NCBI GenBank assembly: GCA_946699065.1 | Contig: CAMPDV010001539.1 | Coordinates: forward strand, 45,171 to 109,170 | Reading direction: 5' to 3' | Origin: Loxodes magnus | Lineage: Eukaryota; Ciliophora; Karyorelictea; Loxodida; Loxodidae | DNA length: 64,000 nt | Part shown: piece after piece, positions 1,059-31,023 of the stretch | Position numbering within the stretch: position 1 is the stretch's first letter | How the letters are laid out: each line of letters opens with the position of its first letter | Notes under the pieces: generated by a model | Databases searched by the model: none | Told to the model about the DNA's origin: nothing | What the model saw: only the letters and a program-made list of their open reading frames with translations | Position numbers and translations under genes: made by a program

Positions 1059-1068
1059 ATTGTATTAG

Positions 1069-6640: not shown

Positions 6641-8018
6641 ATTAAAAATTAGGTTTAACTTTAGTAGAGTTGTTCTTGACACCTAAAATAATGATGGTTA
6701 ATTAATAAGGTAAAAAATAGGTAAATATGATATAATTAAATAGATTGAATTAAGAATTTGAAATAGATCTAGCATATATGGATATACACTTGAATATTAG
6801 ATATCTGTAATTATAATTTGATAGTTTATATTCTTATAGTATCTATTAATAATCATAGAGTTGCTTATTAATTATACAATTGCTTTAATAAAGCTAAATA
6901 GTTTAGAAGCTTATAATTATTTTTTAAGAATCTTGATAGTTATTAAATTATTTACAGCTAGTATATTTAACTAAATTATCTCTTACTCTCTTATAATATC
7001 AGCGTTGTTATGTTTTATGTAGTTATAGAATCTTTTAAATTTAATGACTATCTTATTATTATTAACTATAGATATACTTCAGATTAAAACCTATTTTATA
7101 AATATCTCTTTAATTAATTCTTAAAAATAGAGTAATTGAAAACTAGGTTAGTTATATCAATGTATATTAATGCTAGTTAGATTATAAAATAGCAATAAAG
7201 CTATTTATTTTAAATATAATATAAGATACTAATTAATATAGTATAACTAAGATTAATAAATGTAATACTATAATTAACTAATATTAGCTTACCATATACT
7301 ATAGAGACTATTATTATACACATAGTTATTTATTTTTATATTTAGTTAGTTTATGATATTCTATTATTAGCTATTATTAGAAGTCTAACTTTTATCAATT
7401 CATATCATTTATTCATTATTTACTTTTAACCATTTCTTCTCTTTTTCACATCTTTTAACATTTTTCAACCTACCACTTAAAAATATCAACCCTATTATTT
7501 TTACTATTATTAGGCAAATTATAACAGTAAAACAAACCAATTACTCAGTTTTAACAAAACTATCAATTATGTTTTAAATATATAGATAAGTAGAAGTCTA
7601 TTCAGAGACTTTAAATTACTATCAACCATTCAAATAATCTAATTAAGCTTTAGGACTAGATTCTAGGATAAAATAGAGTCAAGTCATAAAAAACATTCAT
7701 TAAGACAACAACCAAAAGATAAAGAAACTTTATTATAATATGACAAAGGCTTTAATCATTTAAAATTTGAAATCTAAAGGTAGAAAGTAACTATGCTTAA
7801 GACAAAAAATTATAATCAGTAAGTAAATACTTTAAGAAGATATCATTCCAAAATTATCTTACTACCTGATTTAGTGGAGACAAAATCCCTTGTGTTGTTA
7901 GAAAAATACAAGATGAAATAAGTGTTTCAGTAAAGCATCATAAGCTAAAGTCTAAGTTTAGAAACTAATTTTAAAAGAGGAAAAATATAAGTAATTTGGA
8001 GAAACAAAAAGAAATTAT

Positions 8019-8372
8019 ATGACTGCAGAAAGCGTAACGTTTAACCAAGACAAGCTTACATTCGCAAGGATTTTTATTTAAATAAATGGAAAATCAGGAG
8101 TTATGATTAAAGTTAAGAGATACTAAAAATAATAATTAAAAAAGAAGTTGTAAGAACTAAGGAAACAACTTAGTTCTCCTAAATAAAAATAAAATAGCTA
8201 GAAATATTCCAACGCGACATTCGAATTGAATAAAAATAGCATAAAAACTCATAATGAAAGAGATCTCTTTAAATTAAATGAAAAATAAGCAGAAATTGAA
8301 GAGTAATTTGCAAGAGGATGCTTAGATAATTAAAAAATGCAGAAACTTAAACTGTTTAAGGATTTTCTCTGA
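8019..8372 (+). CDS. Coding stretch C, 117-residue open frame, copy 1
   Basis: ATG at 8,019 to TGA at 8,370 is open under the ciliate code (118 codons). It begins MTAESVTFNQDKLTFARIFI and continues with a basic Gln/Lys-rich helix (KKKLQELRKQLSS) and an acidic segment (LNEKQAEIEEQFARG). Composition is typical of a soluble ciliate protein. Frames up- and downstream also look coding (DKIPCVVRKIQDEISVSVKH near 7,880-7,935 and SCNKQLKAKDINQALTKIKS near 8,390-8,450), so this may be the middle of a longer gene broken by frameshifts. No family recognised. In copy 2 an additional T near 17,275 shifts the frame. Confidence 0.45.
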
Positions 8373-8529
8373 TTTTATTTGAAATTTCTTGTAATAAACA
8401 ACTGAAAGCTAAAGATATTAATTAAGCTTTAACTAAAATCAAGTCAGAAAGAAAAAAAGATATTTCTAGAATTTAAAAAGCAAGAAGAGAAACGTGAATG
8501 TATCATCGAAGATCCTTACTTAGATAATG

Positions 8530-10284
8530 CTAATAGCTTACTTTATAAAGCATTATATTAATTATATAAAATTTTATTTATATTATATTGATAACTTGAT
8601 ATTTAGTATTAATCATACAGGCCAAAAAATTACAGTTCTTGCCTTAATTTAAGCTTAGATTATTATTATATTGATACCTTCAACTTAATTAAGATGAATT
8701 AAACATATATTAGAATGAGATTGTAGTATTATTATTTGCTTTACTAATAATCACAATAAATATTATAAATATATCTTGTACATACTTATTATAATCTCTC
8801 TAAAACTAATTTAAATCAAGATATCCTCTTTATAAATAATAAAACTGGATACAACTGTATCTTTAAGGATATACTTGTAATTTGCAAATTTTTTATTTAG
8901 TTGCTTTAATTTTATTGGATATTCTAATTTAATTAAGTCTAATTAAAAGATTTTATAACCATCCTATTATTACCTTAATAATTTCAGTTTTTTTTGAGGA
9001 TCTAAACTTATATTAAAGATCTGCAAATTTCAGCTTAAGTATTTATTTTGGTTTAGTGATTTATTCTTTTAAACTTATTTTAAAGCTGACTATTGATGAA
9101 ATGGTATTTCAATTATTTTATATTATTTTAGACTATTTTTCTTGCTTAATTTAATTTTAACTTGGTTTAAATAAATCTCTTACCTGTCCTCCCTTGTATC
9201 TTTCATTAAATATCTTCCTTAAGATTTGTTTTAAGATTTCAATTTATCAAACTAAATTGTTTTAATAATCTTTTTCATAATTCTTTTATTCTTTCTTTAA
9301 TTAGATCTTGCTTATATTTATAATTCAAGAGTTATTTTTAGTTTCTCTTAAAGGTTTTTCCACTATGCAAGAAAAAATAAGATTGATAGTTCTATCTAAT
9401 AGTTTGTTCTTACCACTTACTATTTACTTTTAGAGAGCATTTTCTCATTTTATAACTCTTTATTTGAACATTATACTTATTCTGTTAGATTAGTCTCTCG
9501 ATTCTAGTATCTTTCTTCCTATCCAATAGCTTCGATAAATTCTTTAAATAGGAAAATTTAAATTTTTGGTATGTTGAATATCTTACTCTTGATTTAAGGG
9601 TTTTTTGATTTGACTAGGTGTAACTTAAGTTTGGTTGATTTTGATGGTGATTTTCTAATCTTAGGGAGAATTTGTTGTGTTACTGAGGTTGTACTGTTAG
9701 AAATAGGATTGTATAGAAGTGAAACCTCAACAGGCCGGAACATCAAGAACTCAAAAATTAAAAATAACTAAGAGGGAGTTGAGGTGGAAAAAGGAATAGT
9801 TTAAGATCATAATATAGATAGGAATAATGTCTTAAGCTTACAAGTTAAATTTGATTTATCTAATAATTTTTAATTTATTGAATTATTTAGAATAAGATCA
9901 TTAGCTTGCTTGATTATCTTTCAAACATTATTTAAATTTTAATCTTCTAGTTATAAGCATTAAACCAAAATAATAGAATCATATTAATATAAATAAGAGG
10001 TTTATTAAAATAATAATAATGAGACTAAAGTTTAGATAAAGAGAGTTAGTATAATTTAAGGATAATGTAAATAATAATTAATTGACTATTAAGCTAAAAG
10101 TACTTCTATTATTAATATATTAATATATCTTTAATTTAATATATATCTTAATTAAATTAAAGAAAACTTCCTTCTTCACTTTAATTAAAGAATAGAAGAC
10201 TTAACTGGGAGCAATCAAAGTTTGAATGCCTTAGAAATTTTAATTAAAATATTATCTGCGTCTAAACTAAATGAGAAACTATTC
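8530..10284. other. Tail of the repeat unit, no gene seen (copy 1; copy 2 at 18,008-19,763)
   Basis: AT-rich DNA with a short T/G-richer patch (about 9,596-9,720). It is repeated at 18,008-19,763 with about one difference per 50-100 bases, and partly in inverted form at 41,060-41,490. No convincing protein or RNA signal. Confidence 0.5.
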
Positions 10285-10293
10285 TAAAATTAG

Positions 10294-10852
10294 AATTGGA
10301 GACTTAGCTTATTAAATAAGAATGATTATGATAACTTGCAATAAAGAAAGCCCAAATCATAAATCTAAAAGAAATTAACAGATATTACTAAATTAAAATC
10401 TTAAGACTTTAAAGATTTACTGAAGCTATTAAAACTATTTTTTAAGAGAAAAAAGATTAATTGGGCAGAATAAGTATAAATCACTATAAAATATTCGATA
10501 AAGCAAAATCTAAGAAATATAAAATAAGCAAGAAGAAAGTATTATAATCAGATTAAATTTCATTTAGAAATCCAAAAAAAATTTCAAAAAAAGAAAGGAA
10601 CGCCTCATTAAATAATTACGAAAATGACAAAAAAATGATATAGAAGAATAATTTAAGACCATAAAAATGAGCTACATCTTTCAATTCTATAAATGGAAAG
10701 AGAAAAATAGAATTAAAGAGAGATATTTAATGTAATAAAAAATAAGAAATAAGACATAGATAAAGATAACTAAAATGAAATCAATCTAGAAAGCCAATTT
10801 TAATTTTCTCTAGTCAAATTTTGTTAGCCTGTACTGATTGAAAGTGTCTGAA
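10294..10852 (+). pseudogene. Decayed coding stretch A, copy 2
   Basis: This copy matches 1,069-1,618. It shares LTDITKLKSQDFKDLLKLL, then reads LKLFFKRKKINWAEQVQ because it has six instead of seven T residues in the run corresponding to 1,213-1,219, and stays open to a TGA in the run MTKK. The homopolymer difference shifts frame relative to copy 1, so at least one of the two copies is frameshifted, or the run length is a sequencing error. No domain recognised. Confidence 0.35.
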
Positions 10853-12218
10853 GGATTTTTAACAATGATTTAACAAAATTATTTAAGATATCTTAATTTT
10901 AACCTAGGAAATTATAAAACTTATATTTGTATCTTGCAAAAGCTGAAGAAATATAAAAAAGATAAATGCCAGAATATAAATTTTTAATTTAACTATATTT
11001 AAATTATTATTCTTAGCATTCTTTAAAATATAAACTTTATAAATAATAGATAAAAGAAGCACTAACTAATCTATAACTACTAAATGTATTTAATTATAAG
11101 GAAATGTCTATAGCTAAAATAATAAAGTATTATATCTAAATAAAGGAATCTAATAATTAAATTAAAGTTAATAATGGCTTTAGTAAGCTTATATATGTAA
11201 TTTAACTAAGGCTAAATAATTAATACTAAGAAGCTTAGTATTTAAAAAATAACTAATAAATTAAATATTCCTTTCTTAAGTTAATCTTAATCAATAGATA
11301 TCTTATATTACTATTATTACTATTTATTTAATTACCATATTATCTATATTTTACTTATTAAACCACATTCCATTAAAATAATTGAATAAACTACATTAGC
11401 TGATAACTATCTTAAAATATTAGAAAGATACTAAAGATTTTAAAATAAAATATATGAAATACTGTGCTTGATACACAGCTAGAATAATTAAATAAAATAA
11501 TTATAGATATAATCACTAATATAACAAACAATTATTAATTTATTTACCTCAAGTATTTAAATAGTGTCTTAAATTTGGATGTAAGATTGATTAATAGAAG
11601 CTACAGTTAAACCTTAATTATTTATGTGGTTGGCTCATAAGAAAGAATTAAAATAAAAATAAGAAATACTTATAAATTTAGAATAACAAACACAAAAATA
11701 AAACTTAGAATATTAAAACTAGAACGGTGATTATTATTTCTATAGAGCTAAGATCTTCCTTTAATTTTAAGAATATTTTTTATTTAATTATATTAATATA
11801 TTTAAATAACTTTAATTATCTCTTAACTTTAATATTACTCTATTAATTTGCTTTAGATGTAATCTAGCTTATAACTTTTTTAATTCTAGTTAATTTTAAA
11901 ATTCGAAAATCAAATAAAATGGTTAATATTCAAACTAAAACATAGAAACACTAGCCCACAGCAAAAAAGTAAAGATTTGCCAATATTTGAAAATAAAGAA
12001 GAGATGAAAGATTAATCTTTCTATTTAAAATAACTAAATTGATAGAAGATTCTTATTCTATAGTCCATCTGATAGTTTTGCAATTAAAAATATTAGAAAG
12101 ACCCAATCTAAGTAAAAGAGCTGGAGCTCAAATAGAATTAGGAAATCAAGAGATGTCTTCAGCGTATTTGCTTCTAATTAATCAAAGATTAAATTACCTT
12201 TGATCTCCAAGAAAAAAA

Positions 12219-13804
12219 GGAATCTCCTTAAAAGCATAATTTTATAATATTAAAGAGAAGGAAAGCAAATAGATTGGAACTATCTTTAGATCAAAAAATA
12301 CTTAAAGGCAAAAGGGGATAAGGCCTGAAAATTTTAATAGGAGTAGAATTAAGTTAATGACTTTAGGATGAGTTAATCTTAGCAAACATTGAAAGAGCCA
12401 AAGGTTTTGTCAAATTTTGAGACATTTTAGAAGAGTCTGAATTTTCCATACCAATTAAAATTCTGAAAACCACTAAGACTTCCTGTTGATACTAAATTAA
12501 ACTGAATCTCATTAAGTTCATAAAAAAGTAGAGTTTATGCATATCTTATAGCAAATAAAGAATACTGTAAGTATTATTTATTTAGATCCTAGAAAAATAT
12601 CTTCTTATTCTCGAACTTGCCAAGCTTTTTGATCTTAAAAGTTCAAGAGGCTTAGTTCTATAAAAGCTGAAAAAATAGCAGCTACAAAATCAAAAAGCAA
12701 TTAAGAGCTTAAAACGGATTCTAAGAGATAATTTATAGCTTAGCAGCAAAATTTAAATAAATTTAAAGAGACATTAGAAAAGCAACTCTTTCTTTTTAAC
12801 AAGCTAGACTTCAAGTGCTCTTAATTCCTCACAAGTAATTTTGAATTTTTTAAGTTAATTTATAAAGTACAGATCTAATTAATAAAGTAGAGAAAACTTA
12901 GTAAAGATAGAGATATTAAAGCTTGGCAGAAAAAATTATAAGTGTAAGTGAAACTTGTAAGTTTCTTTGTAAATTCTAAAGAATTAAGAAAAAAAAATTC
13001 ATGGGTCCGAGTGCTAGGGATAGAATTGATAGGTTGAAATAGTTAGCATGATTACTTTAGAAAAATTGCCGACTGAAAATAGTCACTAGCTAAATATGAA
13101 GAAGAAAACTCTATTGTTTCTTTAATAAACTTAAGAAACATCTGGATTATTACCTTAGCATAAAAAAGAAATTTACCTTGAATAAATATGGAATAGTCAG
13201 TAGCTTTAAACAAGCACTAAAAGATTAAAGCAAACTAAATTAGAATTTTTAACATTCAAGCTTAAACTTACGTTAAGATTATATACGTTAGTTCTAAGAA
13301 GTTTGATTGCTGATCCTTGAGAAATAAAATTAATATTGCTGACAATAACTGGCAAGACTCTAAATAATTGAATCGGGTTTGGGAGTTTATCTATTAAAAG
13401 ATATATGAAGCTTACTTAAAAAAGACATAAATAACTAAAAAATTTAACTTAGAGAAAAGTGTATGGCTTCAGCTTTATATTACTAGAAAATAGAAAAAAG
13501 TACTCAGTTTACTATAAGAATATTCTGGCAAGGTGGAAACATGTCAATTAGTACAAAATTAGAAAAGACTGAACAAAAAATTGACTAAACAAAAAATTTA
13601 GAAACAACTGCTTCAGCGATTTTTAATGGCTACGACTAAAATAGAAACTTATCTACTAGGAGTTGAAGATAATTAGCCACTAACTCCATAAAATACTTGA
13701 GGCCTCGAGAAGATTAGCTTCAGTAAATTCAGCCAAAAAAAAAGTAAAAAATAAATCATACAAAATAAAAAGAGCATATTATTCCTGGTGTCTAAATACA
13801 TGTG
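12219..13804 (+). pseudogene. Decayed coding stretch B, copy 2
   Basis: Reads identically to 2,985-4,570 as far as I could follow, including the positions of the interrupting TGA codons. The lesions therefore predate the duplication or were copied by conversion. Product unknown. Confidence 0.45.
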
Positions 13805-15103
13805 AATAACTCAGGGATACTTTTAGAAAAAGCTTAAAAATAAATTAACGAGATATGGTCACTTAATTAGATAGATCTGAAAAAATATCTTGCTTTAATT
13901 TAATCCATAGCTTAAATTAGATCAAGGACTGAAAATTATAAAAGTAAGTTTATCATTTTGATTGAATTACGCAAAATCTTTAAAAGATTTAATAATCATG
14001 CATAAATTCTTAAATAAATTTTTTAAAGTTGCTCGAAAACATCTTTTAGCTTTAAAACTTTAGGACTAATTCCTTTAAGATTGGTTATTAAATAATAGCA
14101 TTAATTTTAATTATTAATATATTAGTTTTAGAAGCATTTTACTTACTCTTTTAACTAAACTTATATAACTCTTAGATTTCTTTTATATTAGTAGCTTTAT
14201 CTACCTATTTTAAATAATCTACCAGTCTAATATTAAACATATAATTAGTATAATTGTAAGATTAATTAGCTTAAGATATTATAAAGCTACTTATTAATAT
14301 TCCTACTAATCAATATTACTAACTACTCTAATACTCTAGTCATCCTTTAAAATCAAATCTATTATCTACCTATTACCAAATTATTTAACACTTTAACCAA
14401 AAAAATCTAATTTTGGAACTAAAATTAATTAGCTATAATGAAAAAGCAAGACTGACTTACAAATAATTATTATAAATTATTAACCTGGAATACAATCTTC
14501 TTTATGCTTAAAATATAAGCTATAAAGGTACAAGAAATTTAGATATTTAAAATAATTCTTTGAAGCAAAATTAGTTGAAATATATGAAGAGTAGATATAA
14601 TGAGAGGGTTATTCTTTTCTAATTAATACAAATTTATTAAGACTAAACATAAAATTAAGGAATAAGCAAGTCTATTAAGATAAGCTTATATTTAAGTTTT
14701 ATTTACTTAGCCTATATTTATGTTAATAAATTACAGTATCTATCAATTATAACATTTACATAATATTATCATATCTTCTTAAAATTATAAACTCTTTATA
14801 CTCATCTAATATTGATATACTTATAAGATACAAATAAATAGTAAAATTAATATTAAAGTCTACAACTCTTTTATTTAAAAAGGCGGGAGATTTAGTTAAA
14901 GATAGCATTCAAAAATTAACAATAGAGTGTCTTTGTATTTATTAAAGATAATTAATAATTAGATACTTCTTAATTATATTAGCTTTTAACTATTTCCTCT
15001 TCATCTTTTGCTTTTTATTTAAATACATACTAACTTAAATAGCAAGCTATTAGATAAGTAGCTACTTTTTTGTTAGTTTTATCCTTCTTCATAGCTTTAT
15101 TAC

Positions 15104-15874
15104 TTTATAACTTTTCCTCAATTTTTAGATTAAGATTCTATTAATATAAGCGCTAAATTCTTATGAATCAATCTTAAATCACTTCAACCAATCTAGGTAA
15201 AATTTTACATTTTCCAAGATATTACAGAAAAGAGCATGTTTAATAGTGCTGAATGAACAAGTTTATTTTAATTTGTTTACTTCAAATGCATCTAGTTTTG
15301 TTAAATGGAATATTCTTCCCTTTATGTTATAAAGCTTTAAAATTTTCTATTATTTGGTAATTCCAAAATCATTGACTTCTACAAAAGTGTTTCTTCTACC
15401 AATTTGCATTGCAAGGAAAGTTACTTCATGACCGAATAAATAAAGCGATATTAAGAGTAGTGGTATTAAAAGAAAGTAGCCTCCCATTTATTTTGTACTC
15501 CTTCGTCGCTCTACGTGTCAGACTAGAGTCAAACTCAACAGGATCTTTTTTCTCATCTGATCATGTCAAGCCCGTTCCCTTGGCTGGTTGTTTATTAATA
15601 TGTCTGAGTTAGAATAATCAAAGTTCTTAACACTTCTAAAATATTTGATTCTTCCTGCAAAGTTCCTTGAAGAACTGGCAGTTACTCTTTTAATAGATCC
15701 TTATTAATAAATGTGAGAAAGTTCTACTTTCTTCTAGAAAATAAATAAAGCAGTGGTTTGCAAGAATAACTTGGATTCTTTTAAACTTCTAATAATTACC
15801 ATGTATTTGGCATATCTTAATAAAAGATTTCTTAGTTTGAGTTGATAATTTAAAATTAATTTAATTACAGTTGA
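15104..15874 (-). pseudogene. Nuclear LSU rRNA gene fragment, copy 2
   Basis: Identical by eye to 5,870-6,640, offset 9,234; the diagnostic CCAGCCAAGGGAACGGGCTT lies at 15,568-15,587 on the minus strand. Same decay, same boundaries. Confidence 0.85.
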
Positions 15875-17079
15875 ATTAAAAATTAGGTTTAACTTTAGTA
15901 GAGTTGTTCTTGACACCTAAAATAATGATGGTTAATTAATAAGGTAAAAAATAGGTAAATATGATATAATTAAATAGATTGAATTAAGAATTTGAAATAG
16001 ATCTAGCATATATGGATATACACTTGAATATTAGATATCTGTAATTATAATTTGATAGTTTATATTCTTATAGTATCTATTAATAATCATAGAGTTGCTT
16101 ATTAATTATACAATTGCTTTAATAAAGCTAAATAGTTTAGAAGCTTATAATTATTTTTTAAGAATCTTGATAGTTATTAAATTATTTACAGCTAGTATAT
16201 TTAACTAAATTATCTCTTACTCTCTTATAATATCAGCGTTGTTATGTTTTATGTAGTTATAGAATCTTTTAAATTTAATGACTATCTTATTATTATTAAC
16301 TATAGATATACTTCAGATTAAAACCTATTTTATAAATATCTCTTTAATTAATTCTTAAAAATAGAGTAATTGAAAACTAGGTTAGTTATATCAATGTATA
16401 TTAATGCTAGTTAGATTATAAAATAGCAATAAAGCTATTTATTTTAAATATAATATAAGATACTAATTAATATAGTATAACTAAGATTAATAAATGTAAT
16501 ACTATAATTAACTAATATTAGCTTACCATATACTATAGAGACTATTATTATACACATAGTTATTTATTTTTATATTTAGTTAGTTTATGATATTCTATTA
16601 TTAGCTATTATTAGAAGTCTAACTTTTATCAATTCATATCATTTATTCATTATTTACTTTTAACCATTTCTTCTCTTTTTCACATCTTTTAACATTTTTC
16701 AACCTACCACTTAAAAATATCAACCCTATTATTTTTACTATTATTAGGCAAATTATAACAGTAAAACAAACCAATTACTCAGTTTTAACAAAACTATCAA
16801 TTATGTTTTAAATATATAGATAAGTAGAAGTCTATTCAGAGACTTTAAATTACTATCAACCATTCAAATAATCTAATTAAGCTTTAGGACTAGATTCTAG
16901 GATAAAATAGAGTCAAGTCATAAAAAACATTCATTAAGACAACAACCAAAAGATAAAGAAACTTTATTATAATATGACAAAGGCTTTAATCATTTAAAAT
17001 TTTAAATCTAAAGGTAGAAAGTAACTATGCTTAAGACAAAAAATTATAATCAGTAAGTAAATACTTTAAGAAGATATCA

Positions 17080-18008
17080 TTCCAAAATTATCTTACTACC
17101 TGATTTAGTGGAGACAAAATCCCTTGTGTTGTTAGAAAATATAAGATGAAATAAGTGTTTCAGTAAAGCATCATAAGCTAAAGTCTAAATTTAGAAACTA
17201 ATTTTAAAAGAGGAAAAATATAAGTAGTTTGGAGAAACAAAAAGAAATTATATGACTGCAGAAAGCGTAACGTTTTAACCAAGACAAGCTTACATTCGCA
17301 AGGATTTTTATTTAAATAAATGGAAAATCAGGAGTTATGATTAAAGTTAAGAGATACTAAAAATAATAATTAAAAAAGAAGTTGTAAGAACTAAGGAAAC
17401 AACTTAGTTCTCCTAAAGAAAAATAAAATAGCTAGGAATATTCCAACGCGACATTCGAATTGAATAAAAATAGCATAAAAACTCATAATGAAAGAGATCT
17501 CTTTAAATTAAATGAAAAATAAGCAGAAATTGAAGAGTAATTTGCAAGAGGATGCTTAGATAATTAAAAAATGCAGAAAATTAAACTGTTTAAGGATTTT
17601 CTCTGATTTTATTTGAAATGTCCTGTAATAAACAACTGAAAGCTAAAGATATTAATTAAGCTTTAACTAAAATCAAGTCAGAAAGAAAAAAAGATATTTC
17701 TAGAATTTAAAAAGCAAGAAGAGAAACGTGAATGTATCATCGAAGATCCTTACTTAGATTATTAGAATGAAGAAACCTTAAAAATTTAAAATAATTATTA
17801 TAGTTGAGAAAATGCATAGAAAAGAAGTTGAAGATTTTATCGAATGAGCAAATATTTTAAATTAAATGACAGTCTATTAATGTGTCTATACTTGAATATC
17901 TTAAAATTAAATTTTAGGGTTTATTATTAGGATTATTAAGTTAATATATGAGAATACTTTTGTTTCTCTTATTATTATTATTTTTACCTAAGATATCTTA
18001 AACTCTAA
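17080..18008 (+). pseudogene. Coding stretch C, copy 2, frameshifted but longer
   Basis: Same gene as 7,850-8,525 with one extra T (acgttttaacc against acgtttaacc) early in the frame corresponding to 8,019, plus one A fewer near 17,138. Downstream it continues past the point where copy 1 jumps: CIIEDPYLDYQNEETLKIQN is read across the 17,763 boundary into the 246 bp absent from copy 1. That extra DNA is thus part of the original gene, and copy 1 has a deletion. Product unknown. Confidence 0.4.
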
Positions 18009-19772
18009 TGCTAATAGCTTGCTTTATAAAGTATTATATTAATTATATAGAATTTTATTTATATTATATTGATAACTTGATATTTAGTACTAATCATACA
18101 GGCCAAAAAATTACAGTTCTTGCATTAATTTAAGCTTAGATTATTATTATATTGATACCTTCAACTTAATTAAGATTAATTAAACATATATTAGAATGAG
18201 ATTGTAGTATTATTATTTGCTTTACTAATAATCACAATAAATATTATAAATATATCTTGTACATACTTATTATAATCTCTCTAAAACTAATTTAAATCAA
18301 GATATCCTCTTTATAAATAATAAAACTGGATACAACTGTATCTTTAAGGATATACTTGTAATTTGCAAATTTTTTATTTAGTTGCTTTAATTTTATTAAA
18401 TATTCTAATTTAATTAAGTCTAATTAAAAGATTTTATAACCATCCTATTATTACCTTAATAATTTCAGTTTTTTTGAGAATCTAAACTTATATCAAAGAT
18501 CTGCAAATTTCAGTTTAAGTTATCTATTTTGGTTTAGTGATTTATTCTTTTAAACTTATTTTAAAGCTGACTATTGATGAAATGGTATTTCAATTATTTT
18601 ATATTATTTTAGACTATTTTTCTTGCTTAATTTAATTTTAACTTGGTTTAAATAAATCTCTTACCTGTCCTCCCTTGTATCTTTCATTAAATATCTTCCT
18701 TAAGATTTGTTTTAAGATTTCAATTTATCAAACTAAATTGTTTTAATAATCTTTTTCATAATTCTTTTATTCTTTCTTTAATTAGATCTGCTTATTTTTT
18801 ATGATTCAAATGTTATTTCTAATTTCTCTTAAAGGTTTTCCGCTATGCAAGAAAAAATAAGATTGATAGTTCTATCTAATAGTTTGTTCTTACCACTTAC
18901 TATTTACTTTTAGAGAGCATTTTCTCATTTTATAACTCTTTATTTGAACATTATACTTATTCTGTTAGATTAGTCTCTCGATTCTAGTATCTTTCTTCCT
19001 ATCCAATAGCTTCGATAAATTCTTTAAATAGGAAAATTTAAATTTTTGGTATGTTGAATATCTTACTCTTGATTTAAGGGTTTTTTGATTTGACTAGGTG
19101 TAACTTAAGTTTGGTTGATTTTGATGGTGATTTTCTAATCTTAGGGAGAATTTGTTGTGTTACTGAGGTTGTACTGTTAGAAATAGGATTGTATAGAAGT
19201 GAAACCTCAATAAGGCGGAACGTCAAGAACTCAAAAATTAAAAATAACTAAGAGGGAGTTGAGGTGGAAAAAGGAATAGTTTAAGATCATAATATAGATA
19301 GGAATAATGTCTTAAGCTTACAAGTTAAATTTGATTTATCTAATAATTTTTAACTTATTGAATTATTTAGAATAAGATCATTAGCTTGCTTGATTATCTT
19401 TCAAACATTATTTAAATTTTAATCTTCTAGTTATAAGCATTAAACCAAAATAATAGAATCATATTAATATAAATAAGAGGTTTATTAAAATAATAATAAT
19501 GAGACTAAAGTTTAGATAAAGAGAGTTAGTATAATTTAAGGATAAGGAAGATAATAATTAGTAGACTATTAACTAAAAGTATTTCTATTATTAATATATT
19601 AATATATCTTTAATTTAATATATATCTTAATTAAATTAAAGAAAACTTCCTTCTTCACTTTAATTAAAGAATAGAAGACTTAACTGGGAGCAATCAAAGT
19701 TTGAATGCCTTAGAAATTTTAATTAAAATATTATCTGCGTCTAAACTAAATGAGAAACTATTCTAAAATTAG

Positions 19773-20330
19773 AATTGGAGACTTAGCTTATTAAATAAGA
19801 ATGATTATGATAACTTGCAATAAAGAAAGCCCAAATCATAAATCTAAAAGAAATTAACAGATATTACTAAATTAAAATCTTAAGACTTTAAAGATTTACT
19901 GAAGCTATTAAAACTATTTTTTAAGAGAAAAAGGGTTAATTGGGCAGAATAAGTATAAAACAATTTAAAATATTCGCTGAAAGTAAAATCAAGAAATATA
20001 AAATAAAAAAGAAGAAAGAAGAAAGTATTATAATCAGATTAAATTTCATTTAGAGATTCAGAAAAATCTTCAAAAAAAGAAAGGAATGCCTCATTAAATA
20101 ATTACAAAAATGACAAAAAATAGATATAGAAAAGCAATTAAAGACCATAAAAATGAGCTACAGCTTTCAATTCTATAAATGGAAAGAGGAAAATGAATTT
20201 AAAGAAAGATATTTAATGTAATAAAAAATAGGAAATAAGATATAGATAAAGATAACTAAAATGAAATCAATCTAGAAAGACAATTTTAATTTTCTCTAGT
20301 CAAATTTTGTTAGTCTGTACTGATAGAAAG
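19773..20330 (+). pseudogene. Decayed coding stretch A, copy 3
   Basis: Third copy of the same open stretch. It starts as copy 2 does (KLKSQDFKDLLKLLKLFF), then reads VNWAEQVQNNLKYSLK and reaches SDQISFRDSEKSSKKERN in the same frame. A small insertion (an extra agaag near 20,010) joins the two frames that are separate in copy 1. This supports the idea that both halves belong to one original protein. No domain recognised. Confidence 0.35.
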
Positions 20331-21689
20331 TGACTGAAGGATTTTTAACAATGATTTCACAAAATTATTTAAGATATCTTAATTTTAACCTAGGAAATTA
20401 TAAAACTTACCTTTGGAAATTTGCAAAAAACTGAAGAAATAAAAAAAAAATAAAGCTAGAATATAAATAATTTAACTATATTTAAATTATTGTTCTTTAC
20501 AATCTTTAAAATATAAACTTTATAAATAATAGATAAAAGAAGCACTAACTAATCTATAACTACTAAATAAATTTAATTATAAGGAAATACCTATAGCTAA
20601 AATAATAAAGTATTATAACTAAATAAAGGAAATTAATAATAAAATTAAAGTTAATAATAGCATTAGTAAGCTTATATATGTAATTTAACTAAGGCTTAAT
20701 AATTAATACTAAGAAGCTTAGAATTTTAAAAGTAACTAATAAATTAAATATTCCTTTCTTAAGTTAATCTTAATCAATAGATATCTTATATTACTATTAT
20801 TACTATTTATTTTATTACCATATTATTTATTTTTACTTATTAAACCACATTCCATTAAAATAATTGAATGAGCTACATTAGCTGAAAGTTATCTTAAAAT
20901 ATTAGAAAGATACAAAATATTTTAAAATAAAATATATGAAATACTGTGCTTGATACACAGCTAGAATAATTAAATAAAATAATTATAGATATAATCACTA
21001 ATATAACAAACAATTATTAATTTATTTACCTCAAGTATTTAAATAGTGTCTTAATTTTGGATGTAAGATTGATTAATAGAATATATAAGTTAAGCCTTAA
21101 TTATTTATGTGGTTGGGTCATAAGAAAGAATTTAAATAAAAATAAGAAATAATTATAAATTTAGAATAACAAACACAAAAATAAAACTTAGAATATTAAA
21201 ACTAGAATGGTGATTATTATTTCTATAGAGCTAAGATCTTCCTCTAATTTTAAGATTCTTTTTTATTCAAATATATTAATATATTTAAATAACTTTAATT
21301 ATCTCTTAACTTTAATATTACTCTATTAATTTGCTTTAGATGTAATCTAGCTTAATAACTTTTTTAATTCTAGTTAATTTTAAAATTTGAAAATCAAATA
21401 AAATGGTTAATATTCAAACTAAAACATAGAAACACTAACCCTCAGCAAAAAGGAAAGATTAGCAAATATTTAGAAAATAAAGAAGAGATGATAGATTAAT
21501 CTTTCTATTTAAAATAACTAAATTGATAGAAGATTCTTATTCTATAGTCCATCTGATAGTTTTGCAATTAAAAATACTAGAAAGACCCAATCTAAGTAAA
21601 AGAGCTGGAGCTCAAATAGAATTAGGAAATCAAGAGATGTCTTCAGTGTATTTGCTTCTGATTAATCTAAGATTAAATCACCTTTGATC

Positions 21690-23530
21690 ACAAGAAAAAA
21701 GGAATTTCCTTAAAAGTATAATATTTATAGTAATAAAGAGTAGCAAAAGACATTAATTCTGGAACTATATTTCAATCAAAAATAAGAATAGGTAAAAAGG
21801 ATAAGATCTGAAACTTCTAATATGAGCAGAACTAGTTCAGTGACAAAAAGATGGGTTAATTTTAGTAAACATTGAAGTATGCCCAAAAATTTTCAAACTA
21901 AAAGATGTTTTAGGAAGAATCTGAATTTTTCATAACAGTAAAATTTCGAAAAACACTAAGGTTTCTCACAAATACTAAATTAAACTGAGTCGCATTTAGT
22001 TCTTAAAAAGTAGAGTTTATGCATATCTTATAACTAAAGAATACTGTAAGTATTATTTATTTAGATTCTAGAAAAATATCTATTTATTCTAGAAATCAAG
22101 CTATTAGATCATTGAATTTCAAAAGGTTTAGTTCTATAGCAAACTGAAAAAAACAGAAGCTATTCTTTCTAAAAAGCACTATGAGCCTAAAAATAGATTC
22201 TAAGAGATAATTTATAGCTTGGCAACAAAATTTGAAGTATATTAAAAGAGATATTAGAAAAAAATTATTTCCTTTTAAAATCGACTTCCAATATTTTTAT
22301 TTCCTCACTAGTAGGTTTGTAATTTTTAGCATAATATATAAATACAGTTATAATTAATAAAGTAGAGAAAAATCAGCAAAGTAATAAAATAGTAGCACTC
22401 GACATTAAAAATTCAAAGAAAAAGTGAAGCTTTAAATTTCTTAGTCAATTCTTAAGAATTAAAACAACAGATTCATGGTGTTGAGTGCTAGGGATAGAAT
22501 TGATAGGTTGTAATTACTTTAGAACATTTGCCGAATGTAAATAGTCCCTTTATAAATAGGAAGAAGAAAACTTTGTTGTTTCTTTAATAAACTAAGAAAC
22601 ATCTGGATTATTAATTTAGCATAAAAAATAAAATTTCCTTGAATAAATGTTGAATAGTCAGTAGCTTTAAAAAAGCACCCGAAGATTAAATTAAACTAAA
22701 TTGGAGCTTTTAACATTCAAACTCAAACGTGCGCTAATTTTATGCAAGTTAATTCTAAGAAATTTTGATTGACATTCCTTAGAAATAAAAGTACAAAAAA
22801 AGAAAGCAATTGATTTGACTCTAAACAATTTAGTAGGACTTGAGAGCTTATATATTAAAAGATATCTGAAGTTTTACTCAAAAATGATATAAATAACTAA
22901 AAAATTTCACTAAAAGGAAAGTGTATGGTTTTTAACATATCCTGCTAGGAAATCTAAATAAGTGCTCATTTTACTATAAGAATATTATTGCATTAAAAAT
23001 TGTGACAATTAGGACAAATTTAATAAAGGCTGTAGAAAAAACTACTTATCAAAAAATTTAGAAACGACAAATTGAGAGATTTTTAAATGATTGCAATTAA
23101 AATAGAGACTTAATTACTAGGAGTGGAAAAAAACTAGCCACTAACTTCATAAAATATTTGAAGGACTCAAGAAGATTAGTAGTCATTAAATTCAATCAAA
23201 AGCGTAAAAAATAAATCCTATGAAATAATAAAATCATATTATTCTGGCGCTTCGGTTTTTATAGGGAACTCAGGGATATTTTAGAAAAATTTTTCAAGAA
23301 ATTAACGAAGCATAGTATTTAATCAAATAGATTTTATCAAATATTTTGATTATTTCAGCCTAGCTTAAATTAAATTGAAAGCTAAAAACTTCAAAATTAG
23401 TTTATCATTTTGATTGGATAAAGCAAAAGTTCATAAAAGAAATAATAATCTTACCAAAATTCTTAAAAATAAATTTTTAAAGTTGCTTGAGAATTTCTCA
23501 AAAGAGTCATTGAAAGCAATTTTTGGCTTT
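21690..23530 (+). pseudogene. Decayed coding stretch B, copy 3
   Basis: Diverged counterpart of 2,985-4,570. Homology is clear at landmarks such as gtagagtttatgcatatctt (22,010), tgctagggatagaattgata (22,486) and agtgtatggttttt (22,919), with numerous substitutions and indels between them. More eroded than copies 1 and 2; no intact frame of useful length was found. Confidence 0.4.
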
Positions 23531-24239
23531 TGCTAACATTTAGAATCAAAATTTTACTAATTATATAGATCCTCTACATAATATTATTAACTCTTTTATA
23601 TCTAACAATCATATTATATAAAAGCCATATAACTAGTTATTAAATAAACAGCGCTAATCAATTTATTATTATTATATCAACATATCTTTAATATTCTAGT
23701 TTATATACTTAAATCTATCCAATTTTATTTATTCTCAAATTATTCCATAACTTCCAGCTATATCTTTAACTATACCAATTATTCAAATTATCTTCAAAAC
23801 TAAATCTATATGGCTTATTAATAATGCTTCTTCTTAATTATACTTATAACAACATTACAGTTCATCATTTACTAGTCTCTATTTATTATACATATTTATT
23901 CCTTATTTAAATCATTACTTCCTAACTAACCTTAGTCAAACTAACCTTAACACTCAAATTTCCACTTCTACCTACTATTATTACTACCTTTTTCATCTCT
24001 TTTCAAATTATCAAAACAACCTTATTTTATGCTAATTGTAAAACAAATATCATAAACATATGAAAAGATTCAACTCTATCATTAACTTTATTCTATACCA
24101 ACCATTCATCATTAACATTTACCATATAACAGACTCTTGCTACATCATTTATATATAACAACTAGTTAAAAAGAGCTAAACTACAAGGGAATATTTATCA
24201 AAAATCCTATTGCTATACTTATTAGAAGGTTTCAGGCTG

Positions 24240-25930
24240 ATCTAAGAAAATAACTGGAGAGCTAACCGTTTAGAAATTAGAAATTTCACTTCAAGACTAG
24301 TGCTAATAATATAGAAATCAAGAAATTTGGAAAATATTGAAGCTTTAATAAACATTTATTGACTAAATTTATCTGATAAAGTGCTAGAAATTTCAGTATT
24401 CTTTCTGGCTTTTCATTTCCTAATAATAGGAAAGCAATCTTTTGCAAGCTAATCATTAGTAAAATTACCAAGTATACTTAAATTCTGAGTTTTGAATGCC
24501 TTAGGCTTTTTCGCGAATCTTAGTTTATTTCTTGGAATAACTAAAATTATTTTAGCTGAATTTTTTCAATAATGATTACGATAATCCAAAATTTAAGCCT
24601 ACTTTAGTATTTCCTTCAAGAACTCTCTACTATTAAAACTGTATGTTACTGCTATTTAACCTAAAATCTTTCTTACTTTATATGGCTCTTTATCTAAGTT
24701 TTTTAATCTTTATTCCAGCTTGAATTATTTTTAAAAGAAAAAGATAATTCAGTAGTGTTAATGTCAAAATTTCTCTTTGCTTATAAAATTCTTCTACCAT
24801 ACTTAATGACAGATAATAGTCGATCAAATCTAGCTAATTTTATAGATCAGCAGGCAGAAATCTTATTATTAAATGTAGAGCTGAACGAGCAAGTTTACTG
24901 GTAATTTTTAACTTCTAAGGCATCTAGTTTTGTTAAATGGAATATTTCTTCTCCTTTTGTTATGAAGCTAAAATAGTTTCTATTATTTGGTGAATTCACT
25001 AATCACTGATTTCTTCAATGCAGTTTCTTCTACCCAGTTGCATTGTTAGAAACTTACTTCACGACAGGATAAGCAAAGCGACTTTTAGAGTATTTTTTTT
25101 TCAAGACAGCGACCTCTTTCTATGTCTTCTACGTCTCTTTACACGCCAGATAAAAATCAAACTCAACAGAGTCTTCTTTCCCTGCTGGTCATGCCAAGCT
25201 CGTCTCCTTGGTTGGTTGAGACACTTTAAATTCTTGTATATTCTTACTAATAAATCTAAGCTAAAATAATAAAGCTCTTAACGCTTATTAGTATTCTAAA
25301 ATATTTGGAACTTCTATCAAAGTACCTAAAAGAGCTAGCAGTTGATCATATATTAGATTTTTATTATTAGATTGAGTCAATTCAAATTTCTTTTAGAGCT
25401 TAAATATTTCCAATTTAAAGTAGTAATTAGCAAGAATACCTTTGATCACTTTATAGCATATTCGTTACAGAAAGACTAGATTTTCTCTAAACTTCATCTT
25501 TAAGTAAAAATTTAGAAAATTCTACCGTAAGCTGAGATTATTCCTTTTTAGTTACCAAACTTCTACATTAATTAGAAACCATTTTAGCTTACCTAAACTT
25601 ACTATTATATATTTAGACTATTTTAAAATTAGTTAGAATCTTTCTTTATCCAAAATCCTTATTGTAAAGAATCCTTTTATAATAAAATAATTTTCCATTT
25701 TATTTGGAATAAGAGAAACAAAGCAACAGTTAATCAAAGGCTTGAGAAACTTAAAATGAAGATACTTGCTTATTAATTCTATTGCTATTTCCGTTTCTAT
25801 TCTGTAGCATGACATATCACTTTTTTATTTTAGAAGAAAAAATCCCAGATAACTCTTGTCCAAAGTTTTTTAGAGTCTAGAAATCTATTAATTCTAATGA
25901 TTTAATCTTCTCTTCCCTTGCGCTTCTAAG
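24240..25930 (-). pseudogene. Nuclear LSU rRNA gene, longer degenerate copy
   Basis: The core is unmistakable: minus strand from 25,215 reads CCAACCAAGGAGACGAGCTT, GGGAAAGAAGACTCTGTTGA and GTGTAAAGAGACGTAGA, with AACTGCTAGCTCTTTTAGG (near 25,355) in the AACTATGACTCTCTTAAGG position. This copy decayed independently of copies 1 and 2 and in places stays closer to the rRNA. It also has about 500 bp (25,430-25,930) absent from the others that seems to continue the LSU: AATAGTAAGTTTAGGTAAGC then TAAAATGG near 25,590. Downstream, TTTTGGATTATC (near 24,580) and TTGAAGTGAAATTTC (near 24,295) resemble the regions near the LSU 3' end with roughly correct spacing. Outer parts are moderate-confidence. 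Confidence 0.75.
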
Positions 25931-26150
25931 CATTTACCAAGTATTTGGTATATCATTATAAAGATTTTTTTAGGCTTAAGTTGATATTTCAATTTATTTA
26001 GTTACAATTTAAAAATTAGCTTTAATTTTTAATAGTTTCCATTTAAAGCCTACACTAATAGTAATTTAATTAATAAATTAAAAAAGTAGCTACATAGTAA
26101 ATAATTTGAACACATTGAGTTAAGAATTTTAAATAGATTTAGCATATATA

Positions 26151-28297
26151 GATATATAATACTACCTATAACTAAACACAGTACCTAACTAATTATATTA
26201 TTACTTCATTCCTTAATATCTTTATACATACACCCTTCTTATTACATTATTATATACTACTATATTCCAAATTACAATCTATCATAAACTTAAGATTAAC
26301 AGATCTTTATTATACTGCTCTCATTATCATCTAGAATCTTACCAATACATTATAAATCTCTAAGTCAAAATGACATCTATTAAAATATTAAAAGGTATAG
26401 ATAGTTTAATTATTGTAAGCTTACTATTATGAAGCTCTTATTTTGCTTATTTACATTTCTTTCTAAAATTAAGATTTCTATTTATGCTTCTTAGTTTAAC
26501 TTATATCATTAAGATTTATACCTCTTCGTAGTATACAGAGATTACCTACTAAGATAACTCTAGACTGTATATCATAGTGATAGAATGTCTTAATGATAGA
26601 TTGAGAAAGAAAGTTGCTAAGTTTTAGGTAAAAACTATCTTAATATAATGAGGTAATTAAAAAGAAGTAGAAGAAACGTGTCAATTCCTTAGATCTATCA
26701 TTACGTTATAAGAATAATAAATTCTAGTATGAATATTCCTTGAACTTAAAGTAAGTATTTATTTAGGATACAGAAAATAAGACAATGTTAAAGTGATCTT
26801 AAATATAATGTGTAATAATTTAACTGGAGTTTCTAAAGAAATACAGACTAATTACTAAAACATAGTAAATCCAGCTAATGTCTTTATAAAGCCGTCAGTT
26901 ATTTCTAATTCAAATTAGTAAATTATCATTTTCTTGATAGAACATCCTGTCCATGCTTCCTTCTTTGCCACTACTTTATTAATGTAAGATAATGCTTAAA
27001 TACATGAGTGAGGAAACTACTAAATATTAATTACCGAAGAATAAAAAATGATTAAATAAACAGATTAAATATTTATTCTTTGAAAAGAACTCGGTCATTT
27101 TAAAGCTTAATGGAGAGTTCTCAAGATTGAAAAGTATGAGACACTTTAATACTTTAAAGCACGATATTTTTATTTAGAAGGATGATATCCCTTAAAATAT
27201 CAATTTTTATATTTAATAACATTCAATCTAAATTTACTCAAAAACAGATAGAGTTGAATAATCTAAACAAAATGGGCAATTAATAATAGAAAAGTTATAA
27301 TATTTTCTTCAATTTTTCTAAATACAATAAATCTAACTTGATGTTCATTTATAACTATTAATATATTTCAATAAATTACAAATAGCATATAAATTGAACA
27401 CTTTCTAGTTGAAGCATATAAAAGATTATTTATCTTTAGCAGACATTGCGAATCTTTTTAATGATTCAATTATCTTAAATTATTTTTAATTTAATCTATT
27501 TTGTCGTTAAAATTTGGTATTATTCATTTAATAGAATGATTAGATTTTTCTTTTAGCTTAAATGTTTTAAAAATAATTTTTTTAGTTATACTTTTAAAAT
27601 TCTTATTTTTAACAAACTTTATTTATTATTTGCACAACCTTTAAGATTATCGTGTTATTTAAATTAAAATGTAAATATGAGAATTAAATTGTTCATACAA
27701 TGCTTATTTAGTTTCCTTCTATTAAAAACTTAAGGATATAAAATTCTCTTTCACTATCTTTAGCTATTATCCTTTAAGATCTTATATTTAACCATCTGTA
27801 ATCATCTAAAATTTAAGATATTATTATCTTAAAAAGCAATATATACAAAGAATTTAGTTAAATTAATGCTAAGCTGTTATTTATGAATTACAAGAATTAC
27901 AATTAAAAGTATCAAGTTATAATACTTTTTACCTTAATGCTAAATTATCAAATTTTAGCAAATTTTATTTTACATTTTGCTGGTTTTAACTTTACGATTA
28001 AGTTTATACTTTCATTGATATTAGAGCAAACTTAATCATTTGCTAGATTATTAAATCCTTTATTGGACATTAATTTCTTCTAGTTATTATCAATAAATCT
28101 TCAACTGCTTTTTAGTTTTTAGTCAGAAGTTTTTCTTTTTCCTAGTTATTTTGATAGGAAATTAACCAAATTTAATCAAATAGCTTTTATTTGTGCAACT
28201 AGAAACTCCAAGTCTATTATTATTATTTCACTTTTACTTTTATGAAGTTAAGATTTTTTACTATTTAAATCTTATCTTCATATCAATATTAAAAAAC
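26151..28297. other. Unassigned spacer right of the array
   Basis: No homology to the unit seen beyond 26,150. Open frames are short and low-complexity on both strands. I looked for the 5' half of the LSU rRNA here, which would be expected next to the 24,240-25,930 piece on the minus strand, and could not recognise it. Confidence 0.4.
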
Positions 28298-28669
28298 ATG
28301 CCAACTATCCGTTAAGGCTTTCTAGAAACGAAAAAAAAGAGTGGTAAGCTCGTCAAATAACTCTTCCACACAAGCCCTAAAAACAAAAATGGAAAACTAG
28401 AACCATAATACAGAAAAACTAAAGAATAAACTAATCTCAAAAGCTAGAAAAAATAAATTCATTTCAAGTGCAGGAACGCTAATACTACGAGACTGAATGG
28501 GATAAATATTGTGATGCTTCTTAAAAGGTGGAAGAACTTCGAAAAAAAGAAATATATGAGTTAAAAGAATATATTGTTTGAAGAATAAGTGGTATAAATA
28601 TCATAAGAAACCAGTGGATTTTTAAGACATTCAAATTTTTATATATTACTTGAAAAAAAACTAAACTGA
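28298..28669 (+). CDS. Unidentified 123-codon open frame
   Basis: ATG 28,298 to TGA 28,667-28,669 is open under the ciliate code. It begins MPTIRQGFLETKKKSGKLVK and has Lys/Gln-rich continuation. A second frame inside it (QVQERQYYETEWDKYC, then KVEELRKKEIYELKEYIV, about 28,465-28,575) looks at least as protein-like, so the real gene may be a frameshifted one using both frames. The local base composition is less AT-rich than the flanks. A tRNA relic lies 190 bp downstream. No domain recognised. Confidence 0.35.
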
Positions 28670-28858
28670 AAAGCTCGGAAATCGAATGTTTAATGCTAAT
28701 TATACTAATTTCTTACATAGTGATGAATAAATATCTTAAAGAGTTAATAGAATTTCTAGTTTTAACTAAAAAAAATGTTATTTCATTAATTTTACATAGC
28801 TAAAAATATCGAGTATAAAGCAAATAAAAGTAAATATTTAAGAAATTTAAGTTATGAA

Positions 28859-28924
28859 ACCCAGCTAGCTCAGTAGGTAGAGCGTCAAACTCTTGATCTT
28901 GTGGTTTAGAATCACCCGCTAGGT
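28859..28924 (+). pseudogene. tRNA-Lys (CTT) relic, shortened
   Basis: The 5' half is a normal eukaryotic tRNA: ACCCAGC acceptor strand, TA, D-arm GCTCAGTAGGTAGAGC, then an anticodon loop CTCTTGA with anticodon CTT. The acceptor 3' strand GCTAGGT pairs 6 of 7. The 3' side of the anticodon stem, the variable loop and the start of the T-stem are compressed: only 66 bases against about 72-73, and two mismatches appear in the anticodon stem. Most likely a decayed tRNA-Lys gene. No A/B-box test beyond reading was possible. No intact partner occurs in this window. Confidence 0.75.
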
Positions 28925-29319
28925 ATTTTAAATTTTATAAATTTGATATAATAATAAAATCTCTACAAACTCTAATTTGTAACAGACTTAACAAAGGTGT
29001 AGTAATTTTAATTAATAATTATTATTATACTTAAATTTATTTCTTTGCATAGTCTCAAGTTAAATAACTTTTTAGAAAAAAAAAAGTTTTAGATTTGTGA
29101 GTACTAAAGAAAAAATAATAATCTTTTGAGATTAAAGATATTTTACAATTCTCAAGAATATTTAAAATTATTATTCTCTAAATCTTAAATCATAATTCTA
29201 TCTATCAAATAATAAATTTAATCTAGTTTTATAAGAATATTTAAAGGAGAAAGGTATAAAATATGATAGAAACACAAGCAGATACTAGTAAATAGTTATT
29301 TCATAAATTTTGTATCTTT

Positions 29320-30240
29320 GCTATATAAAGATTATTTAAAAATCTTCAAAGTGAGTGAAAATTTCGAAAAAGTTCTAGGATGTAATCTAAAAGATTTTAT
29401 CAAAGATTGCTTTTATTTTTTGATTAAGATAGTTTTGAAGTTTTAAATTGCTGATATACACCTTTCGTTTTTCAATTATAAAATTTATATTACCTGTTTA
29501 GAAAAACTCCTAAGAATTGAATCTATTTAGAGTTATTTTACTAACTTATTTTAAAAGATTAATCTTGCTTATAAATTAAGAAAAAAATTAGGAAGAAATT
29601 ATAATAGTTCGCTCTTCTATAGATAAAGAAATTTAGAAATTCATTTTAGTATATAATTGATTATTAAGGTTTCATACTTTTGAGTAAATAGAAATTTTTT
29701 AGTCTTAAACACTTATAAATTTTTAATTAAACTTAGATATACTTGCAAAATGAATTTTAAACATAATCTTCTAAAGGAATTGGATAAATATAGCTGAAAA
29801 TAAATAATTGAAAAACCTAAATCAAGAAAAATCGTTTAGGTAACAGACTAAGAGAGTGTTAGATAATCATAACAGAAAAGTTTTAAAAGTTGAAGCTGAG
29901 TAGCAAAAAATATAAACATTTGATTATTATATGCAATAAAACTTTGGCTATAAACCAAATCCACAAATTTCAATCATCTGTTTTATGTATGAATGAAATA
30001 CTAAGAAGATTGTACATTTAAGACGAAGAAGAATATTTATGGAATACTAGATATGAATAAATAAGTAGATTTTGCTTAGGATCGAATGCTTTGAAATAAG
30101 CAAATGATTTTTTTAGCACTAGAACTTGCAAATATTTAAAATTAAATAAACTAAATAAAATTTTTAGTTAAATTTCTTATTTTAAATAGATATTACTAAA
30201 AGGAACTAATTTATAGCAATAAAAAGATTATTGAAAATTA
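29320..30240 (+). pseudogene. Decayed gene with weak PAS-like segment
   Basis: A frame open to TGA 29,681-29,683 reads DYLKIFKVSENFEKVLGC then NLKDFIKDCF near 29,325-29,410, which resembles the PAS-domain pattern of a residue-rich helix followed by a Gly. It continues LEKLLRIESIQSYFTNLF. Further frames (for example CMNEILRRLYIQDEEEYLWN near 30,000) are protein-like but in other registers. The PAS assignment rests on a short resemblance only; an alternative is an unrelated ciliate protein. Several frameshifts or TGA codons make it a pseudogene. Confidence 0.3.
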
Positions 30241-31023
30241 AATTTATTAGTTTATGTTTATTTTTGAGGCAGCGTAAAACTTAATTTTCTTTATCTTTTG
30301 CTAAAAGATAGAGTTAAGATGAAGTCTGTCAAATTTGATTCTTTTAATGGTAATTAATTATTTTGAAATTAAGTAACATTTATACCAGGAAATAAAAAAT
30401 TTGCACTTTATTTACCAATTTTATTTAAGTTAAACATTTTTGAATGATTTAGTCTTTAGTTGATAATTATAAATACCAAAATTTTTTAATATGGCTTTTA
30501 TAAAAGTGACAGTGATAAGATTCTAAATTAAGCTCTGAAAGACAAGCGCCTTAGATCCTTAGCTCCAATATCATTATAATAGGATTTTGCGATCTTCATA
30601 AAATAGATAAAGCAATAATAAGCAAAGCTTTCTACCTTTTAACTTCTGTTTAATGTATAAGATCTAATAGTTATATTTATAATCTAATTTGAATATACTC
30701 TAAAGCCTCTTTTAATATTATAATTTTTTAATTTTTATTAAGCATATTAATATTATATATAATGAAGTATTTAATTTATGGTTTTTTCCTTTTAACATTT
30801 ATTTATCATAAAATAATTTTATAAAATTATATCTTAAATTATTTATATTAATATCAATTTAATATTCATTCTTTTTTAATATTAATCATATATTTCTTCC
30901 TTGTATATTTAAATTTTAATAATGTAAGCAAAATTTGATTTAAATAAGATTGAAATTTAATAATATTATAAAATATTAAATTACTTAATATTTTACTATT
31001 CTTAATATATTTTGCAAAAAAAA
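30241..31023. other. AT-rich spacer
   Basis: Very AT-rich, no recognisable coding or RNA signal. A purine-rich leader (gcaaaaaaaa) sits directly before the start at 31,024. Confidence 0.4.

Follow-up and report, generated by a model that had tools for sequence, protein, structure and literature searches.

An LSU rRNA-derived fragment carried by a long tandem repeat in the ciliate Loxodes magnus

Pseudogenes derived from rDNA are known in the human genome. They are also described, as rRNA pseudogenes, for filamentous ascomycetes in parts of PMC5555474. Like these pseudogenes and dispersed rDNA fragments, the sequence that we report here from Loxodes magnus would be a non-functional, decayed piece of the host rRNA gene lying outside the working arrays; unlike them, it is one short internal piece of the large-subunit (LSU) gene, multiplied within a tandem repeat of 9-20 kb. 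Satellite repeats with rDNA-derived segments are likewise known, and share with the Loxodes repeat the amplification of an rDNA piece through tandem array growth. The Loxodes unit differs in being very long, in having two diverged halves that make up a ~20-kb higher-order repeat, and in belonging to a karyorelict ciliate. SINEs derived from 28S rRNA (SINE28) form a further known class. A term for rRNA-derived SINEs occurs in sections of PMC8010984, and chimeras of LINEs with non-coding RNAs appear in sections of PMC13174262. These, like the Loxodes repeat, hold a short 28S-derived piece within a repeat family, but the Loxodes copies stand in tandem arrays, do not form a SINE-like unit and carry no recognised hallmark of retroposition. 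R1/R2-type non-LTR elements are rDNA-specific, and the Loxodes core presumably comes from the same LSU neighbourhood as their insertion sites, its start lying, we take it, some 15 nt from the R1 site; unlike these elements, the Loxodes unit gave no reverse transcriptase or endonuclease domain in a Pfam search of positions 1000-10304.

In its composition and behaviour, the locus is a fragment of an rRNA pseudogene that travels within a satellite-like repeat; fossils of this kind are ordinary in genomes, but the setting here is unusual. LSU-derived repeats in Loxodes received no mention in the literature searched, which included parts of PMC11441545. The same parts describe the interspersed repeats of L. 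magnus as mostly unclassified, at 366 Mbp in the somatic (MAC) assembly, and the present repeat reveals one ingredient of that large fraction. Its LSU core offers a marker for the growth of the repeat family, and also calls for caution, as short LSU probes or k-mers will match these arrays too.

Identity and extent of the LSU-derived core

We analysed a stretch of 64,000 nucleotides (the window; contig C1539, positions 45171-109170) and searched the assembly of 705,730,643 bases in 7843 contigs to which it belongs. The reference was a host rDNA unit, L046, whose LSU scores 1669 bits with Rfam and whose reverse-complement positions 201-5200 are N. Three LSU-derived cores were found in the window:

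6155..6352, minus strand: LSU-derived core, A-type copy 1 (82.9% match to L046; sub-gathering RF02543 match of 23.8 bits)
15389..15586, minus strand: LSU-derived core, A-type copy 2 (82.9% match to L046 over 199 nt, E 2e-47)
25020..25214, minus strand: LSU-derived core, B-type copy, the one initially annotated (aligns to L046 reverse-complement positions 6214-6414; nhmmer E 8.5e-18)

Both A-type matches to L046 (6352-6155 and 15586-15389) covered 199 nt at 82.9% identity with E 2e-47, and the B-type match (25214-25020) reached 78.6% over 201 nt with E 2e-41; three further matches between L046 and the window had E 0.2-0.6. A small LSU profile, which combined yeast 25S and the Rfam consensus with a piece of ciliate-like rDNA from a public record (L001), found the same cores by nhmmer on the minus strand, at 6352-6185 and 15586-15419 (E 2.6e-27) and at 25214-25056 (E 8.5e-18). 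The cores are therefore significantly similar to the rRNA gene of the host itself, as is expected of an rRNA pseudogene or rDNA-derived fragment.

The initial annotation had proposed a degenerate nuclear LSU gene at 24240-25930, from three conserved blocks on the minus strand. Two of these, CCAACCAAGGAGACGAGCTT at 25215-25196 and GGGAAAGAAGACTCTGTTGA at 25182-25163, were borne out as parts of one significant LSU match (25214-25020). The third, a AACTATGACTCTC-like block, stood at chance level: its best place in 24240-25930 carried three mismatches in 13 positions, and 52 of 200 dinucleotide shuffles did equally well or better. As this block is unsupported, the proposed interval is much broader than the secure match. 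The two A-type cores, absent from that annotation, are better LSU matches than the copy it singled out.

Using the readable part of L046 as query (E<=1e-3), we found 12 core places on contigs C2233 (70,000 of 70,459 b covered), C4917 and C1539, window included, and nhmmer recovered the same 12. Across alignments of 199-206 columns their identity to L046 was 78.1-85.4%, with E between 1e-39 and 5e-52, and every one started at L046 base 6208-6214 and stopped at 6410-6414, beginning at CAGCCAAGGGAACGG and finishing near GGGAGAAAC. At this threshold the rest of L046 outside its run of N was unmatched on all three contigs. With these bounds common to all 12 places, what can be claimed securely is a piece of ~200 nt from the interior of the LSU, which we take to lie around the domain IV/V junction. 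The almost invariant LSU sequence immediately upstream was not recognisable in eight copies aligned with yeast and L001. Eight tests of the 150-nt A and B flanks against the host LSU gave z of -1.5 to 1.3, with the core as positive control at z 54; early flank tests against the yeast LSU gave z of -1.2 to 2.0, and one reversed-LSU control reached 2.7.

Two other sources of an LSU-like sequence were considered. A mitochondrial LSU was set aside, since the core follows the nuclear LSU of the host and, on visual inspection, does so even where the host differs from yeast and L001. A piece of rDNA spacer was rejected for the readable part of L046, in which most of the host spacer is N: no other readable part matched the three repeat contigs, and among the matches listed no contig carries both the repeat and rDNA.

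Rfam gave no match at gathering thresholds across the whole window, and none at E<=1 in 23000-27000, LSU, SSU and 5.8S included. Within 5000-8600, at E<=10, a sub-threshold RF02543 match appeared at 6139-6280 on the minus strand (23.8 bits, E 0.0076; cut-off 50 bits), with a second piece at 6332-6352 on the same strand (13.1 bits, E 6.9). We rejected a functional nuclear LSU rRNA gene: no RF02543 match rose above gathering, and the core is more variable than its flanks (see below). The best core scored 23.8 bits with RF02543 against 1669 bits for the host LSU, part of which is N.

The initial annotation had suggested looking for SSU or 5.8S pieces beside the core, and none was found in the scans made. 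No Rfam SSU or 5.8S match was found in 5000-8600 at E<=10 or in 1-28000 at E<=5, a scan that also failed to detect the LSU core, and no place stood out in a scan with a yeast 18S sequence, less sensitive than the host SSU would be. Yeast 18S and 25S replaced the host SSU, ITS and much of the host LSU 5' part, which are N in L046. Nor did any standard aligner used deliver the single collinear LSU match of at least 700 bases that the initial annotation had named as support; ~200 nt were obtained. The same annotation had counted either the lack of an LSU covariance-model hit or a hit of under 60 bases against itself: at its own copy the covariance model found no match, and the aligned length was ~200 nt. 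What held of the proposed decayed nuclear LSU gene within a repeat was the decay, the LSU origin and the tandem repeat; the gene itself is, securely, an internal fragment of ~200 nt.

A protein-coding repeat was rejected, ten of the window's longest code-6 frames yielding one weak match below the cut-off (E 0.084). The 9.3 kb at 1000-10304, translated in six frames straight through TAA, TAG and TGA, yielded no Pfam domain at E<=0.01. ARAGORN detected no tRNA anywhere in the window, and two scans of viral contigs for eukaryotic LSU returned no match.

The tandem repeat and the decay of its core

The cores sit in a repeat with the following parts in the window:

1064..17762, no strand assigned: two tandem ~9.2-kb units with A-type cores (1064-8528 against 10289-17762, 97.5%)
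18006..30682, no strand assigned: part of the diverged second half of a ~20-kb higher-order unit, with the B-type core (8525-14039 against 18006-23493, 89.4%)
24876..26156, minus strand: B block homologous to the A block at 6010-6786 (blastn)

The two A units align over 7.5 kb at 97.5%. Contig C2233 carries the same organisation, with its positions 1-15989 matching window 13910-29924 at 96.7% and 16028-16783 matching 29925-30682 at 92.6%; there the higher-order repeat measures ~20.1 kb and holds A-type and B-type cores ~9.6 kb apart in the same orientation. Around the cores, A and B share homologous blocks of about 770 nt: blastn aligned 24876-25446 with 6010-6542 (70.9%) and 25923-26156 with 6552-6786 (75.1%), and the ~476 nt between (25447-25922) are present in the B block only and absent from A, a relation also seen in C2233. 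Each repeat half has one core, in constant orientation, in the three contigs scanned. The repeat is widely spread: the best 40 of 808 candidates for a B-copy query fell on at least 26 contigs, and the best 40 of 808 for an A-copy query on at least 15, at 94-100% identity in both cases.

The window also contains a diverged third copy of the tandem unit and an inverted partial copy. The latter, at 37334-41484, is 81-82% similar to a 3.7-4.2 kb part of the unit, and a further related block lies at C1539:7013-12532; no LSU core was found near either in scans of C1539. At 57805-64000 a 37-bp tandem array of about 168 copies, with 14-16% GC, reaches the window end; parts of PMC11441545 report low-complexity tandem repeats in L. 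magnus, with which this array is in keeping.

We favour as the probable history of this locus a non-functional host LSU fragment that was captured by the ancestor of the tandem repeat, duplicated with it into A and B, amplified, and left to decay passively. An internal piece of ~200 nt of the host's own nuclear LSU rRNA gene would have entered an ancestral form of what is now a long, AT-rich tandem repeat. Duplication of this repeat would then have given two halves, A and B, which diverged and were multiplied into the arrays now seen on many contigs. Throughout, the captured LSU segment would have been a passive passenger, drifting from about 51% GC toward its AT-rich surroundings. At 202 core sites compared between the A and B consensus sequences, seven derived states are common to both, 17 occur in A only, 29 in B only, and two sites differ in both. 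The seven common derived states, together with the homologous flanks, suggest a single capture that predates the A/B duplication. Amplification of the LSU piece along with the repeat may likewise have been passive.

Sequence variation among copies bears on whether the core is maintained. We assembled 20 A-type copies: 18 of the best 40 A-query matches and the window's two. Variable columns made up 36/203 of the core, 18/200 of the upstream flank and 14/154 of the downstream flank, or 18% in the core against 9% in the flanks. Both column classes contributed, with 25/88 GC columns varying in the core against 15/93 in the flanks, and 11/115 AT columns against 17/261. Because GC and AT columns alike vary more in the core, it is not evolving more slowly than its surroundings, and its excess is not due to GC content only. 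Among these 20 A copies, which include the window's cores at 6155-6352 and 15389-15586, AT columns vary about 1.5 times as often in the core as in the flanks, and GC columns about 1.8 times as often.

The 20 A copies are 80.7-85.6% identical to the host LSU. G>A or C>T accounts for 20 of the 38 segregating departures from the host state and for 10 of the 22 fixed ones. An earlier comparison of seven A and five B copies had also found the A core to be the most variable part. The A cores thus show no detectable constraint, and their drift toward AT is what a dead fossil would be expected to leave. A counterpoint to this explanation comes from the five B copies, in which the core (5/159 variable columns) is exceeded in variability by the 300 nt directly downstream of it (22/300); elsewhere the count is 0-5/300.

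Alternative origins

We next weighed whether the captured piece was once longer. In this possible but doubtful reading, what survives in the repeat is a fossil LSU copy that was larger, about 1 kb or more, perhaps from an old rDNA array, and has mostly decayed, whereas ectopic gene conversion from working rDNA refreshed the 200-nt core before the A/B split; such a refresh would make the core look young. The stretch in question is:

25289..26139, minus strand: possible relic of older LSU on the upstream side of the B core, faint but in register (anchored register test; suggestive)

An anchored test over 75-925 nt upstream of B gave a statistic of 2.18 against a null mean of 0.91 (sd 0.25; 0/682 controls), and other registers of the same stretch gave 1.39 at most. 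Other settings agreed (0/411, and 1/342 with 200-nt windows), as did a second host LSU copy (0/509 and 0/339). Against shuffled LSU, the part 232-709 nt upstream gave z 3.3 (0/100), and 709-915 nt upstream gave z 2.4 with an A/B profile (2/200). A global score over the B upstream gave 0/344, and weaker hints came from 700 nt upstream of B (1/300) and 433 nt upstream of A (8/300). The single, constantly oriented core in each repeat half of the three contigs scanned is also compatible with this reading. The B-upstream trace is suggestive; if genuine, it would put the original length of the captured piece at about 1 kb.

Several results point the other way, and the stretch was subjected to many tests. 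Substitution-model likelihood scoring of 500-700 nt upstream gave z of -0.3 to 1.0; the signal weakened to 1 to 17 of 856 when G>A and C>T were allowed to pass, and tight gaps with 100-nt windows gave 21/342. The nearest 232 nt upstream gave z -0.3 on the A/B profile, and an extension to 925-1561 nt upstream, specified beforehand, gave z 0.0. Upstream of the A copy the result was not significant. Downstream signals were weak and inconsistent: the 300 nt downstream of B gave z 2.1 by substitution-model scoring and 0.0 in the anchored test, those downstream of A gave 4/352 with tight gaps and 117/421 otherwise, and the A/B profile gave z -1.2. The covariance model found no match at the B copy (23000-27000), and an unanchored scan neither singled out the upstream stretch nor raised any SSU chain above others.

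Two further approaches were discarded. Transition-biased decay upstream of B was rejected, as a forced alignment had no excess of G>A and C>T over transversions, and letting 150-nt windows chain freely to LSU and SSU did not discriminate.

The broader proposal, that the ~20-kb repeat is itself a fossil rDNA array, an old rDNA paralogue that spread genome-wide and decayed save for a gene-converted 200-nt patch, seems to us unlikely. Were the larger reading true, a fossil rDNA array would extend across many contigs.

Retroposition would have reverse transcribed a piece of LSU rRNA and inserted it by LINE machinery, alone or as a chimera, with later amplification along with the repeat. Parts of PMC11441545 report about 2,700 RVT_1 and 1,200 Exo_endo_phos_2 copies for L. 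magnus, and the recognisable LSU piece is short and bounded at both ends, as a retroposed copy might be. We nonetheless think it improbable. The core lies inside a larger homologous A/B block, and the six-frame, read-through Pfam search of 1000-10304 (E<=0.01) detected no reverse transcriptase domain. Neither a poly(A) tail nor a target-site duplication was recognised by eye in alignments around A or B, although the age of the insertion is too great to expect them.

That the core has been retained by the repeat as a functional RNA element, for example one that mimics rRNA or yields small RNAs targeting it, is very improbable. In favour of such a role, nothing else gene-like was recognised in the repeat, and the Rfam alignment of the 6.2-kb copy preserves pairing in part of the LSU helix. 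Against it, the core is the most variable stretch among A copies and decays toward AT, and the window's B copy has no Rfam match.

Host rDNA

According to parts of PMC11441545, the L. magnus somatic (MAC) assembly spans 706 Mbp and is rich in tandem repeats, and its rDNA lies in chromosomal head-to-tail arrays. Our search for the host LSU used 235 nt of L001 as query and scored the best 40 of 674 candidates. Among the matches listed were tandem rDNA arrays on C377, C316 and C277, with further matches on C64, C415 and C177; the C377 matches within these best 40 are mostly 7.3-7.6 kb apart. The initial annotation had set the decayed LSU copy against the single-copy germline rDNA of Tetrahymena, and read it as a fossil of an ancient rDNA duplication or of rRNA retroposition. 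As the host is L. magnus, with tandem rDNA arrays, the argument from single-copy rDNA does not apply. Among the matches listed, the 29 repeat contigs (A and B queries combined) share none with the six rDNA contigs.

Some host rDNA matches deserve separate mention. On C277, at 69163-79200, four successive LSU matches lie 3.3 kb apart, against the usual spacing of about 7.4 kb, reflecting either a shortened rDNA unit or an assembly fault. L026 (C64:346521-349649), the sole C64 match among the best 40 of 674, holds an LSU that is 97.4-98.5% identical to the array LSU but lacks about 150 nt, and is possibly a young LSU pseudogene. L001 itself (BQJP01000067.1:8001-9948) comes from a contig labelled as a Thermodesulfobacteriota MAG, yet looks like the 3' end of a ciliate-like rDNA molecule: GGGGTTT repeats stand at its end, group I introns apparently interrupt the rDNA, and its Rfam LSU match scores 915 bits. 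It is probably contamination in a bacterial genome record.
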